From Desulfobulbaceae bacterium (GTDB lineage: Bacteria > Desulfobacterota > Desulfobulbia > Desulfobulbales > Desulfobulbaceae): a stretch of 38,881 nt of DNA. Location of the stretch: positions 1-38,881 of the forward strand of contig JAMJFO010000032.1 of the NCBI GenBank assembly GCA_023544645.1, in the 5' to 3' direction. A model generated the notes under the pieces. It had not been told where the DNA came from, made no database searches, and saw only the letters and a program-made list of their open reading frames with translations. The position numbers and the translations under genes were made by a program. This document shows, one piece after another, positions 2,548-7,544 of this stretch (the first letter of the stretch is position 1; each line of letters starts with the position of its first letter).

Positions 2548-2662
2548 GGAAAGAAAACACCGAAAAAGCTGAAAGGCTGCTGATCTGCAAAAATTGCAAA
2601 AGACTTTTGCCCCCTTGCCGGCAATGGGGCGCGTTGTCTGCCATGCAGTACGGGACAGAGAT

Positions 2663-3652
2663 ATGGAAGATCTTTTAGAGAACAACGATTTCACCGGGAC
2701 TCTGGAAAAAAACGGCAGGTTTCCCCTCTGCGCCGCGGAAATCGATATTCTGCAGGTGAATCTCGGCTACCGATGCAACCTTGCCTGCAAACACTGTCAT
2801 GTTCAGGCCGGGCCGCTGCGGACGGAAATGATGGCCAGGGAGAATGTTGAATCAATTATTCATACTCTGGAAAATTCCCCGATCAGGATTCTTGATGTAA
2901 CCGGCGGCGCGCCTGAACTTCATTCCAATTTCCGTTTTTTGGTCACTGCCGCAAGAGCTATCGGGTGCCATGTCATGGTCCGCAGCAACCTGGCCATCTT
3001 TTTCGAGGAGGATCAAGCCTCCCTCCCCTCATTTTATAAGGAATGCGGGGTTGAAATTGTCGCGTCCCTGCCATATTTCCGTATCGCCAACGTCGATGCG
3101 GTCCGGGGGAACGGTGTCTTCGAGCGGTGCATCAAAGCGCTGCAAATTCTGAATGAGCATGGTTATGGACAAGAAAACGGCGGGTTGAAAATCCATCTTG
3201 TCCATAACCCTCGGGGTGCCTTTTTACCTCCGTCCCAGGAATCCCTTGAGGCCCAGTACCGCAAGGAGCTTCTGGAAAACTTCGGGGTCCGTTTCAATCA
3301 GCTCTACACCCTGGCCAATATGCCCTTGGGGCGTTTCAAGGATTTCCTCGTCAGATCGAACGGGTATGATGCCTACATGGAAAAATTGAGGAAAGCTTTC
3401 AACCCTTCGACCCTTGACGGCATAATGTGCCGGCGACTTGTGAGTGTCGGCTGGGACGGTATCCTTTTCGACTGCGACTTCAACCTTGTCGCGGGACTGT
3501 CTGTGGAAGAAGGCTGTCCAAGGCACATACGGGATTTTGATTATGAGGCACTCTCGCGGCGGAAGATCGTTTTAAGCGAGCACTGCTTTGGGTGCACAGC
3601 CGGTCAGGGGTCCACCTGAACGGGTGCGGTGGCAGGCGGTCCGCCTGCATAA
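2663..3652 (+). CDS. arsS: Arsenosugar biosynthesis radical SAM selenoprotein ArsS (UGA-coded Sec at 3617)
   Basis: Radical SAM enzyme of the ArsS family, which acts with ArsM on methylated arsenic to form arsenosugar-type products. From the ATG at 2663 the cluster motif C-x3-C-x2-C is at Cys38, 42 and 45 (NLGYRCNLACKHCH). Family landmarks follow: DVTGGAPELH, NMPLGRFKDFL, MCRRLVSVGWDG and the C-terminal HCFGCTAGQGST. The first in-frame stop is a TGA (3617-3619) where the family has a conserved Cys or Sec. Reading it as Sec adds ten residues (TGAVAGGPPA) before TAA at 3650-3652, giving 329 residues. A hairpin fits a bacterial SECIS. An upstream ATG at 2594 exists, but its extension (MQKTFAPLPAMGR...) crosses a palindrome and does not look like the family. 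arsM follows directly. Confidence 0.85.
3617..3648 (+). promoter_or_regulatory. Bacterial SECIS hairpin of arsS
   Basis: After the TGA, GCAGGC (3632-3637) pairs perfectly with GCCTGC (3643-3648) around a GGTCC loop (3638-3642). Counting the U of UGA as 1, loop G and U fall at positions 23 and 24, the positions SelB contacts in the E. coli fdhF element. The bulged U17 of fdhF is not obvious here. Confidence 0.75.
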
Positions 3653-3667
3653 AAAAATAGAGGCGAC

Positions 3668-4735
3668 ATGCGTTTTTCAAGCCCTACTCATGAACAGCTT
3701 CAGAAACATTACGGCAGGATTCTCGCCGGCTCGAAGGATCTGAAAACCAATGCCTGTTGTTGCAGCGAAGAATCCATGCCGCACGCGATCCGGCAGATCC
3801 TTAAGGAACTCGATGAAGAGATCATAAAGCGTTTTTACGGCTGCGGCTCTCCAATTCCTCCGGCACTGGGCGGCTGCACGGTGCTCGATCTCGGCTGCGG
3901 CTCAGGACGGGATGTCTATATCCTGTCCAAACTGGTCGGTGAAAACGGCTCTGTCATCGGTGGCGACATGACCGACGAACAACTTGAAACAGCCCGGAAA
4001 CACATGGACGCCCAGACAGCAAGGTTCGGCTACCGGAAGGCAAACGTCGATTTCCGGCAGGGATATATCGAAAACCTGAAAGAGCTCGGGATGGAAGACA
4101 ACTCGGTGGATGTGGTGGTTTCCAACTGTGTTATTAACCTCTCTCCTGACAAACGGTCGGTTTTCAGCGAGATTTTCCGGGTGCTTAAACCGGGCGGCGA
4201 GCTTTATTTTTCCGATATTTTTTCAAGGCGACGGGTCCCCGAACAGTTCAAGGACGATCCAATTTTGCATGGAGAGTGCCTGGCCGGTGCCATGTATACC
4301 GAGGATTTTCGACGACTGCTGCGCGAGGTAGGTTGTCCCGATTACCGAGTCGTCTCCGGAAGTCCGGTCACCATTGACAATCACTGCATCGAGGAAAAAA
4401 TCGGCATGGTGGGCTTCTCCTCCATGACAATTCGTGCTTTCAAGCTGAATGATCTCGAAGATATTTGTGAAGACTACGGCCAAGTGGCGGTCTATAACGG
4501 CAAGATCAACGAACATCCGCACTTCTTCGATCTGGACGACCACCACCGGTTTCTCACCGGCAAGCCCATGCTTGTCTGCGGAAATACGGCCTCCATGCTC
4601 CAGACCAAGCGTTTTTCCAGATACTTCGAAATTACCGGCGACCGCTCGGTGCACTACGGCGCTTTTGACTGCGCCCCGGCATCGGTTAAAGCGGATGACC
4701 CGAGCGGCAACTGCAGCGGTGGGGCCTGTTGTTAG
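3668..4735 (+). CDS. arsM: Arsenite S-adenosylmethionine methyltransferase ArsM
   Basis: A 355-residue cytosolic class I methyltransferase that methylates As(III) using SAM. The SAM motif VLDLGCGSGRDVY is at residues 72-84. Arsenic-binding cysteines are visible: a CCC cluster at 30-32, Cys154 in VVSNCVINL and Cys204 in HGECLAGAMY, which matches the ArsM pattern. The usual ArsM C-terminal domain follows and ends in GGACC. The start is preceded by a short GAGG. It lies 15 bases after the Sec-extended arsS end, which supports one operon making methylated or sugar-linked arsenic. A 69-base relic of another arsM 3' end lies at 7034-7102. Confidence 0.92.
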   Translation: MRFSSPTHEQLQKHYGRILAGSKDLKTNACCCSEESMPHAIRQILKELDEEIIKRFYGCGSPIPPALGGCTVLDLGCGSGRDVYILSKLVGENGSVIGGDMTDEQLETARKHMDAQTARFGYRKANVDFRQGYIENLKELGMEDNSVDVVVSNCVINLSPDKRSVFSEIFRVLKPGGELYFSDIFSRRRVPEQFKDDPILHGECLAGAMYTEDFRRLLREVGCPDYRVVSGSPVTIDNHCIEEKIGMVGFSSMTIRAFKLNDLEDICEDYGQVAVYNGKINEHPHFFDLDDHHRFLTGKPMLVCGNTASMLQTKRFSRYFEITGDRSVHYGAFDCAPASVKADDPSGNCSGGACC

Positions 4736-4799: not shown

Positions 4800-6210
4800 A
4801 TGGACCAGAAATACGACCTGATCGTTATTGGCGGCGGCTCGGCTGGTTTTGCCGCCGCCATTCAGGCACATGAGTTGGGCAAGACGGTGCTGATGGTGAA
4901 CGCCGGTATCATTGGCGGCACCTGCGTCAATGTCGGCTGCGTCCCCTCCAAGACCTTGATCCGGGCCGCCGAGGCGCTGCACCGGGGAGGCCATCACGCC
5001 TTCGCCGGAATCAGGGGTGAAGCCGAGCTGGTTGATTTCGAGTCCGTTATCGGGCAGAAGGACGAACTTGTCTTGCAGCTCAGGCAGGCCAAATATGTGG
5101 ATGTACTGCACGCCTACGACCGGGTCAGGTTGATCGAGGGCAAGGCCAGGCTGGACCCCCCCCCGCACGGTCAGGGTGAACGGGGTGACTTATGAAGCAT
5201 CGAGCATCCTTGTCGCCACCGGTTCCCGCCCCTGGCTGCCGGATATTCCGGGCCTTGCAGACAGTAGACCGCTCAACAGCACCTCGGCCTTCGAGCTTAC
5301 CCGACTGCCGGAATCGATGATCGTGCTGGGCGGTCGCTATATCGCCCTGGAGGTCGCCCAGATGTTCGCGAGACTCGGCGCCAGAGTCACCCTGCTCCAG
5401 CGTAGCGGGCGGATTCTCCCCACCGAAGACGCGGATCTGACCGAGGCGTTGACCGGTTATCTGCGAGAGGAAGGTCTGCGCATCGAAACCTCGGTGCGGG
5501 TCCGCGAGGTGAAACGCGAAAGTTCTAGAGTGGTTATCCACGCTCTCGTCGGCGACGGTGACGAGGAGCAAGAGTTTTCCGCAGAACAGATTCTGTGCGC
5601 CACCGGCAGACGGGCCAACACGGAGAATCTTGGTCTGGAGGAGGCTGGCGTGCGCCTTTCCGGACAGGGCGAGGTCCTGGTGGACGAACATCTGCAAACA
5701 TCTCGGCTTGGAATCTTCGCCGCCGGGGACGTCATCGGCGAACCCGCTTTCGTCTACACGGCGGCCTACGAGGGGCGTCTGGCCGCCGCCAACGCCTTGT
5801 CACCGGAGCTTCGCCAGCGCGATTACCTGGCGCTTCCGTGGGTCATCTTTTCCGACCCGCAAGTGGCCGGTGTCGGTCTGAATGAACTGGAAGCGTCCCG
5901 CGCCGGAATCGAAGTGGACGTGGCCAGGCTCGATCTCAAAAACGTGCCACGGGCGCTGGCGGCGCGGGACACCCGTGGGTTCATCAAGCTGATCCGCCGC
6001 AAGGATTCGGATGAACTGATCGGGGCACGCATTCTGGCGCCGGAAGGCGGCGAGCAGATCATGGAGGCCGCGCTGGCGATCCGGCACACCATCGGCGTAT
6101 CCGACCTGGCATCGGCTTTCCACCCCTATCTGACGCAATCCGAAGGGATCAAGCTCTGCGCCCAGACCTTCGGCAAGGATGTCGCCAAGCTGTCATGCTG
6201 CTCGGCGTAA
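4800..6210 (+). pseudogene. merA: Mercuric reductase-like flavoprotein MerA, frameshifted in a C9 tract
   Basis: FAD/NAD(P) disulfide oxidoreductase of the MerA branch, reducing Hg(II) to Hg(0) in the cytosol. The N-terminal piece (4800 to about 5164) has the FAD motif GGGSAGFAAA and the redox-active pair CVNVGC followed by VPSKTLIRAA. The rest (to 6210) has the second Rossmann motif, the ATGRRANTENLG and AAGDVIG motifs, the dimerisation domain and a C-terminal SCCSA. That vicinal Cys pair is the MerA hallmark. No N-terminal HMA domain is present. The two pieces are in different frames. Removing one C from the nine-C run at 5156-5164 joins them as LDPPRTVRVNGVTYEASS, about 469 residues, the normal core length. 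It may be a sequence error, a true mutation, or a slippery tract giving phase variation. Confidence 0.8.
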
Positions 6211-6233: not shown

Positions 6234-6746
6234 ATGCGAATTCTCCTTTTGACCATGCTGTTGATCGTCTCGGTTGTCGTCCTGCCTGCTTTTGCGGTCG
6301 AGCAAACCGGAAAAACATTTCTCATTCACGCCAAGACATCTTTAAAGATCGATGACGCACAGATCTGCGCCGTGCCCAATGTTGCCTGGACCGCTCTGGA
6401 AAAAGGGTATGCAGTGGCAATCCTTTTCGATGCCAGTGGGGTAACGGCCCTTAAAAAAGGCGGGTTGTTCGGGGGTGACAAGTCGCCGTTGGACAAAGCG
6501 GCGCTGCCCGAACGCGAGCGTCAATCCCTTACCCGGCAACTGAACGCGCCCCTGGAAACCATTCCCCATGACTACGGCGAGTACATTCGTTTTCTGAAGC
6601 AGAAAGGCGTTCGTCTCTTTGCCAACCGGACAATGATGCAGCTGTACAAAATTGACGAAAAGGAAATCGAACAGGCAGTCTCACCGATCAGCCTGGAGGA
6701 GATGCTTAATCTGATCGAAACAGCCTACATTTACGTGGCCTATTGA
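6234..6746 (+). CDS. Secreted DsrE/F-like protein
   Basis: A 170-residue protein with a Sec signal peptide (residues 1-21, MRILLLTMLLIVSVVVLPAFA) and a DsrE-like fold: an early strand-loop with Cys (DDAQICAVPNVAWTALEKGY), a central AVAILFDASGV strand, and a late VRLFANRTMMQLYKI segment. Relatives of DsrE carry sulfur on a Cys or act as small periplasmic accessory proteins; the single Cys here could hold a thiol-bound substrate. It follows merA by 23 bases and is followed by the small [2Fe-2S] protein, so it is probably part of the As/Hg operon. The specific function is not known. The stop is a TGA-TAA tandem. Confidence 0.7.
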   Translation: MRILLLTMLLIVSVVVLPAFAVEQTGKTFLIHAKTSLKIDDAQICAVPNVAWTALEKGYAVAILFDASGVTALKKGGLFGGDKSPLDKAALPERERQSLTRQLNAPLETIPHDYGEYIRFLKQKGVRLFANRTMMQLYKIDEKEIEQAVSPISLEEMLNLIETAYIYVAY

Positions 6747-6774: not shown

Positions 6775-7011
6775 GTGAGTAGCATGATCTGTTACTGCTT
6801 CGGTTACACGGCGTCCGATATCGAGGAGGATGCCCGTCTCAACGGTAAGTCCACGATACTGGAAAGAATTCTTAACAAAAAGAAAGCTGGCGCATGCCAG
6901 TGCACCGTCAAAAATCCCAAGGGCCGCTGATGTGTTGGTGATGTCCGCCAGTTGGCGGGCAGGGCCATGAAAACAAAAAACTGCGGCCAATTAAATAAGT
7001 TAAGGGGCTGA
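6775..7011 (+). CDS. Small BFD/CopZ-like [2Fe-2S] protein, probable selenoprotein (UGA at 6928)
   Basis: A tiny gene starting at GTG 6775 with GGGAGGTG just upstream (an internal ATG is at 6784). It reads ICYCFGYTASDIEED, a helical linker, then GACQCTVKNPKGR before TGA (6928-6930). Cys6/Cys8 and Cys41/Cys43 match the 2Fe-2S ligands of BFD-like domains such as the N-terminal part of CopZ. From recollection of that family, NPKGR is followed by a CC-LGDV-like segment. Reading TGA as Sec gives GR-U-CVGDVRQLAG, so Sec replaces the first Cys of that pair; the frame ends at TGA 7009-7011 (78 residues). A SECIS-like hairpin is present. Without recoding it would be a 51-residue protein lacking the conserved tail. 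Role inferred: electron or metal handling in the As/Hg operon. Confidence 0.65.
6928..6960 (+). promoter_or_regulatory. Candidate SECIS hairpin of the BFD-like gene
   Basis: Downstream of the TGA, GTCCGCC (6943-6949) pairs with GGCGGGC (6954-6960) around an AGTT loop. With U of UGA as 1, loop G and U are at 24 and 25, one base from the fdhF positions. Fewer constraints than the arsS hairpin but in the correct place. Confidence 0.55.
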
Positions 7012-7033
7012 CGGCAGCGAAGGACAACGGACC

Positions 7034-7102
7034 TTTGACTGCGCCCCAGCATCGGTAAAAACGGATGACCCGAGCGGCAACTGCGGCGGCACCTGTTGTT
7101 AG
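7034..7102 (+). pseudogene. Relic of a second arsM 3' end
   Basis: The frame reads FDCAPASVKTDDPSGNCGGT then CC and TAG, almost the same as the last residues of the arsM at 3668-4735. The DNA is nearly identical over about 69 bases, with a few substitutions. No start or upstream arsM sequence remains, so it is the tail of a lost duplicate, or a fragment copied here. Confidence 0.8.
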
Positions 7103-7136: not shown

Positions 7137-7544
7137 GTGAGAATCGTACGAAAACTGAGTGGCGCATTTACAGGCGGTGCTTTAGGTGGCTTAGCGGATA
7201 GCATTAATTTCTGGGTTCTTTCCCACGTAGGCATTACCGGCATGCTGGGAGTCACCATGAAACCGGAATTCACTCCCTCATGGCTTTACCAGCGCATGGT
7301 TTGGAGTGGGATATGGATGTTACTGTTGCTGCTTCCCTTATGGCAAAAACGAATTGTGTTGCGGGGATGCGTTTTCAGCTTGCTGCCATCCTCAATGATG
7401 CTCTTTATGGTTTTTCCAGATATGGGAAAGGGAATTCTCGGACTGGGTTTTGGAACAATGACTCCCGTGGTAGTAATAGCTCTTAATTTTGTCTACGGAA
7501 TCATAGCGGCATTTTGGTACGAATTTACCGTGCAAAACTATTAA
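7137..7544 (+). CDS. Small inner-membrane protein of unknown function
   Basis: A 135-residue hydrophobic protein from a GTG preceded by AAGGAA. It has a glycine-rich N-terminal segment (SGAFTGGALGGLADSINFW) and about three further membrane segments: WSGIWMLLLLLPLW, a stretch around SLLPSSMMLFMVF, and MTPVVVIALNFVYGIIAAFWY. No catalytic or ligand motif is recognised. It begins 34 bases after the arsM relic and ends shortly before the DUF547 gene. I do not recognise a named family. Confidence 0.6.
   Translation: MRIVRKLSGAFTGGALGGLADSINFWVLSHVGITGMLGVTMKPEFTPSWLYQRMVWSGIWMLLLLLPLWQKRIVLRGCVFSLLPSSMMLFMVFPDMGKGILGLGFGTMTPVVVIALNFVYGIIAAFWYEFTVQNY

Follow-up and report, generated by a model that had tools for sequence, protein, structure and literature searches.

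In the window analysed here, a stretch of 38,881 nucleotides from a Desulfobulbaceae bacterium, a small gene in an arsenic/mercury operon almost certainly encodes a selenoprotein, as judged from sequence comparison. Its product is best explained as a cytosolic protein of 78 residues which consists of a BFD/CopZ-type [2Fe-2S] domain only and lacks the zinc domain found at the N terminus of CopZ. Taken as a whole, our preferred reading, to which we assign a probability of roughly 0.7, is that of a BFD/CopZ-only selenocysteine (Sec) protein that passes a metal or metalloid to adjacent detoxifying proteins. The gene, the elements within it and the genes leading into it are the following:

2594 to 3652, forward strand: arsS (radical SAM, TIGR04167); in-frame TGA at 3617-3619, hairpin at 3632-3648
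3668 to 4735, forward strand: gene of an arsM-like arsenite methyltransferase with the C-terminal motif NCSGGACC
4800 to 6210, forward strand: gene of a merA-like mercury(II) reductase with the C-terminal motif KLSCCSA and a frame break in the C9 run around 5151-5165
6234 to 6746, forward strand: gene of a DsrE-like protein (weak match); 28 bp separate it from the selenoprotein gene that follows
6775 to 7011, forward strand: predicted CopZ/BFD-type selenoprotein gene (78 aa), from a GTG start to its last stop, the TGA at 7009-7011
6928 to 6930, forward strand: in-frame TGA, predicted Sec residue 52, at the first position of the Cys-Cys pair
6943 to 6960, forward strand: putative bacterial SECIS hairpin with a 7-bp stem and the 4-nt loop AGUU, based on folding, covariation and published model constraints

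A preliminary description of this DNA had proposed a 51-codon frame with CxC...CxC spacing that ends in NPKGR-TGA, with TGT and GDV-like residues behind it, and that yields 78 residues on read-through, together with a 7-bp hairpin after the TGA. All of these elements were recovered in place. The frame (6775-7008) starts with the GTG at 6775, upstream of which a ribosome-binding site GGGAGGT is located, and the four residues ahead of ICYCF agree with the starts of relatives. The 51 codons before the TGA at 6928-6930 encode MSSMICYCFGYTASDIEEDARLNGKSTILERILNKKKAGACQCTVKNPKGR, including the two CxC motifs (C6, C8 and C41, C43); from this TGA, with TGT and then GDV directly 3' of it, to the TGA at 7009-7011 the frame encodes CVGDVRQLAGRAMKTKNCGQLNKLRG. 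Standard gene calling probably cuts the gene at codon 51, and it is likely to stand without annotation as a selenoprotein.

The strongest evidence comes from the homologues, which were searched for by reading through every stop codon, so that a TAA or TAG at the Sec position would have become visible. The TGA at 6928-6930 aligns with the first Cys of the Cys-Cys pair in the CopZ-type BFD domain. Among 69 distinct homologues, 67 carry TGA at this position, one carries TGC and one TGT, while TAA or TAG, and thus a homologue ending at this point, was found in none. Both homologues with a Cys codon are longer proteins from mercury operons. A read-through search in 96 related genomes returned 33 matches, 31 of them with a single in-frame TGA (one of these with an additional TAA) and the other two weak. 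Our survey of Sec forms covered the phylum of the source bacterium, and in 395 genomes of this phylum almost every strong match has a single TGA; a single-protein scan of named genomes gave 15 loci.

Codon conservation downstream of the TGA, a further point raised by the preliminary description, is that of a protein. In all 67 TGA-containing sequences the frame stays open for at least 13 codons after the TGA, whereas the other two frames do so in 28 and 41 of them. Counting the TGA as codon 1, codon 2 is Cys in 67 out of 67 sequences, codon 5 is Asp in 60 and codon 6 is Val in 63; variation is highest at the third codon position, and from the TGA onward the pattern U-C-L-A-D-V-R-x-V-V-D/N is conserved. 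The U and the C of the GRUC motif are invariant throughout these sequences.

The hairpin behind the TGA is in good agreement with a working bacterial SECIS element, a reading that is supported by the following comparisons. Its letters are GTCCGCC-AGTT-GGCGGGC (6943-6949, 6950-6953 and 6954-6960), which places the stem 12 nt and the loop 19 nt from the TGA, and the hairpin agrees with all four constraints of the bacterial SECIS model given in PMC13188914. Folding of 6928-6977 gave -21.7 kcal/mol (z -3.8) and of 6940-6964 -14.7 kcal/mol (z -3.9). In 40 ungapped sequences, 91% of the cells in the stem are paired, a value that drops to 30-60% when the stem position is slid, and five of the seven stem pairs show two-sided changes, e.g., from C-G to U-A or from C-G to A-U. 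At most 3 out of 500 shuffles match the stem on any measure; these counts are not to be read as probabilities because the relatives are not independent of each other. At least five of the seven stem pairs are formed in each of the 67 TGA sequences. The window protein has L-A-G in place of the V-V-D of its relatives, and its stem is nonetheless complete. Stability and compensatory changes thus bear out the proposed hairpin.

These comparisons also decide on the possibility that the TGA is an ordinary stop, which leaves a truncated BFD domain of 51 residues and a downstream frame that is open by chance. Gene callers would terminate at this codon, and the 51-residue part alone matches the family. 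We nevertheless rejected this reading as very improbable, given that the downstream codons are conserved in 67 sequences, that TAA or TAG never occurs at the position, that Cys homologues carry a Cys codon there, that the SECIS stem covaries and that the genome holds the full Sec machinery. The source genome has SelA, SelB and SelD as well as a tRNA-Sec with anticodon TCA (UCA), so that the UGA at 6928-6930 would be decoded as Sec via the hairpin at 6943-6960 by SelA/B/D and tRNA-Sec. Even less probable is a suppression of the stop in which UGA is read as Cys or Trp. The Cys homologues do indicate that Cys is tolerated at this position, but a conserved SECIS hairpin is not expected from suppression, the tRNA-Sec is present and another genetic code is not indicated. 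Two SelD sequences of the genome score above the cut-off, and one of them, the second copy (L162, G000:C98:54936-55865), has an in-frame TGA and is probably a selenoprotein itself.

The assignment to the CopZ/BFD family rests on several profile and structure comparisons. The profile NF047645 (CopZ_Nterm_CC) matches the read-through protein with E 3.8e-15 and the 51-residue part with E 1.9e-11; since E improves on read-through, the residues after the TGA contribute to the match. The alignment covers profile positions 86-137 of 138, i.e., the last 52 positions, and has the Cys-Cys pair in the same place. With 56.3 bits for this C-terminal half only, the score is below the curated cut-off of 100 bits; NF045877 (CopZ_Nterm_CU) scores 19 bits, below its curated cut-off of 190 bits, and Fer2_BFD (PF04324) scores 18.5 bits with the 51-residue part and 14.9 bits with the read-through protein, below the gathering score of 26 bits. 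The curated cut-offs are missed because the zinc half of CopZ is absent and the BFD-type half alone is present. A search of the family profile against the PDB retrieved 2hu9, the N-terminal domain of Archaeoglobus fulgidus CopZ, with E 4e-5, with CxC and NPSGRCC aligned. An AlphaFold model built from 43 sequences has a pLDDT of 88. Comparison of this model with VIA-align 2 gave Bfd [2Fe-2S] proteins, whose fold the window protein may share, as best rows (PDB 4e6k, Z 5.5 over 53 residues, and 6e6r, Z 5.3 over 52 residues), compared with 3.5 for unrelated rows and 3.1 for 2hu9; Foldseek found no significant match of the model in the PDB. Bfd proteins differ from the window protein in having no Sec and another spacing of the last two ligands, and they deliver electrons to bacterioferritin.

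The idea that Sec-Cys replaces the Cys-Cys pair of a CopZ/BFD-type domain is therefore well founded in the homologue codons, the downstream conservation and the SECIS hairpin. The accompanying suggestion that a Sec form of this family was undescribed had to be given up, because GRUC (residues 50-53) corresponds to an already catalogued motif, GxUC. The listed "(2Fe-2S)-binding protein (copper chaperone CopZ family) form 1" (cd10141, motif GxUC, WP_245779778.1) and a form 2 of the CopZ family (motif CU) are both catalogued (PMC13188914; PMC9312934). As compared by motif, form 1 belongs to the same domain family as the window protein and has Sec at the same position; the catalogue entries for form 1 themselves give neither function nor gene context (PMC13188914; PMC9312934), and the main text of the 2008 paper which the review cites for form 1 makes no mention of it. 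Form 2 is NCBIfam NF045877, the Csac_0668 family. It likewise has a domain of the CopZ N-terminal type with Sec at the Cys-Cys pair, but there Sec is second in the pair and the model spans 161 positions, whereas Sec comes first in the window protein; a search for form 2 in the phylum gave no match with TGA. NF047645 combines the Cys-Cys pair with the N-terminal zinc part, whereas the window protein has Sec-Cys and lacks the zinc part. The copper chaperone CopZ of A. fulgidus (2hu9) is homologous including CxC and NPSGRCC, but it has a zinc site and Cys in place of Sec, and it has no equivalent of C41. To a kind of selenoprotein that reviews list without a function, our analysis adds a large clade of 67 sequences that is nearly all Sec, and it ties this clade to arsenic and mercury genes. 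A limited literature search found no account of three points: the link to arsenic operons, the almost complete lack of Cys forms among the single-domain proteins, and the ligand question taken up below.

With arsS, arsM and the merA-like gene as neighbours, the arsenic/mercury setting proposed for the gene is indeed present; the gene order into it is arsS, arsM, merA-like, dsrE-like. The operon probably encodes two selenoproteins, since Sec forms are known for the ArsS family (TIGR04167) and both a TGA and a hairpin are found in arsS. The arsS frame ends in GCTAGQGST-TGA and continues on read-through as U-TGAVAGGPPA; its hairpin at 3632-3648 has the loop GUC and, by itself, an ordinary folding energy (z -0.8). 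Within the merA-like gene the reading frame shifts at nine consecutive C (window 5145-5180); either the gene is broken, or the shift is an artefact of sequencing or assembly.

The association with arsenic genes extends to relatives. ArsC, ACR3, ArsP or ArsM is encoded near 21 of 50 other Sec loci, whereas among 20 segments of comparable length, taken arbitrarily from related genomes, just one has such a gene (Fisher p 0.003). ArsC is frequently the gene immediately ahead of the Sec gene, sometimes preceded by ACR3, and in several relatives the gap between both genes is 4-13 bp or replaced by a short overlap; other relatives have ArsR-ArsP or ArsC-ArsP ahead of the Sec gene. The Sec copies in genomes G031 and G023 lie between MerR on the upstream side and MerA sequence on the downstream side, with MerA reduced to a C-terminal piece in G031. 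At the loci L085 and L117, MerR and the Sec gene are followed by the last ~70 codons of MerA only, ~200 bases past the match start, and the rest of merA seems to have been lost there. In over half of the sampled relatives no arsenic or mercury gene was recognised nearby, and the role may therefore be wider than these two elements.

While the single-domain version shows no Cys form among its 67 sequences, the longer Cys forms are found in mercury or heavy-metal operons. In one of them, MerT is followed by a single frame that unites the CopZ domain and MerA. One lies beside MerF and another beside a P-type ATPase; a further one is immediately followed by a gene that carries the annotation dihydrolipoyl dehydrogenase, with merA/merB near. 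L132 (CP036351.1 37939-39174) is a fusion of three parts, namely a CopZ_Nterm_CC-like domain, a membrane part resembling MerT, and a heavy-metal-associated domain; this gene is annotated as mercuric reductase (MerA) although it is really this fusion.

Taken together, a role in metal or metalloid handling appears fairly probable. How such a role would be exerted is a more tentative matter: a selenol/thiol carrier of As(III)/Hg(II) with a [2Fe-2S] cluster, as suggested by the gene neighbours, has in our estimate slightly less than an even chance. In this mechanism, the [2Fe-2S] cluster would probably be held by three cysteines, C6, C8 and C43, together with either Sec52 or Cys53, so that the other residue of this pair is left free. 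The free residue, or both when the cluster is absent, might bind As(III)/Hg(II) or pass electrons; the selenol/thiol pair would bind or reduce As(III) or Hg(II), with the cluster as electron source or sensor. The metal or metalloid might then be handed to proteins encoded by neighbouring genes, i.e., the ACR3/ArsP exporters and ArsC in relatives and ArsM/ArsS/MerA in the window.

A rather unlikely alternative is that the selenoprotein serves as an electron donor, in which electrons pass from the [2Fe-2S] cluster to the Sec-Cys pair and this pair reduces a partner, for instance ArsC, MerA or the DsrE-like protein. Electron donation is established for BFD proteins, Bfd among them, and the vicinal Sec-Cys next to a BFD cluster, the Bfd-type structural match of the model and the close upstream position of ArsC in several relatives all fit this picture. 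The Cys relatives, by contrast, occur with or fused to MerT, MerF, a heavy-metal-associated domain or a P-type ATPase, and not with reductases alone. Because exporters and metal-transport parts are nearby, we favour the carrier over a pure electron donor, although not strongly.

Which residues would hold the cluster can be narrowed down. C41 is an unlikely ligand, because it has no equivalent in 2hu9 and is Ser in the natural Sec copy L111. With C6, C8 and C43 as likely ligands, the fourth must be residue 52 or 53. That Sec52 itself ligates the cluster is doubtful for this particular protein. Sec occupies the first position of the pair in form 1 and the second in form 2; if both bind a cluster through the same ligand position, Sec would be a cluster ligand in one of them. 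If the reading holds, the Sec-ligated [2Fe-2S] cluster would here belong to a protein linked to arsenic/mercury handling. At 78 residues, the window protein provides a test case for Sec as iron-sulfur cluster ligand or as metalloid-binding selenol.

Two observations concern the region downstream of the gene. At 7137-7544 a small membrane protein without family is encoded, which may be linked to the selenoprotein, since in genome G082 a relative with 35% identity (L087, -439) shortly precedes the selenoprotein gene. The selenoprotein gene is directly followed, at 7005-7101 and in a different frame, by a degenerate second copy of the arsM 3' end (4637-4735), which keeps the tail FDCAPASVK-DDPSGNC-GG-CC and its stop and looks like the remnant of a duplicated arsM.
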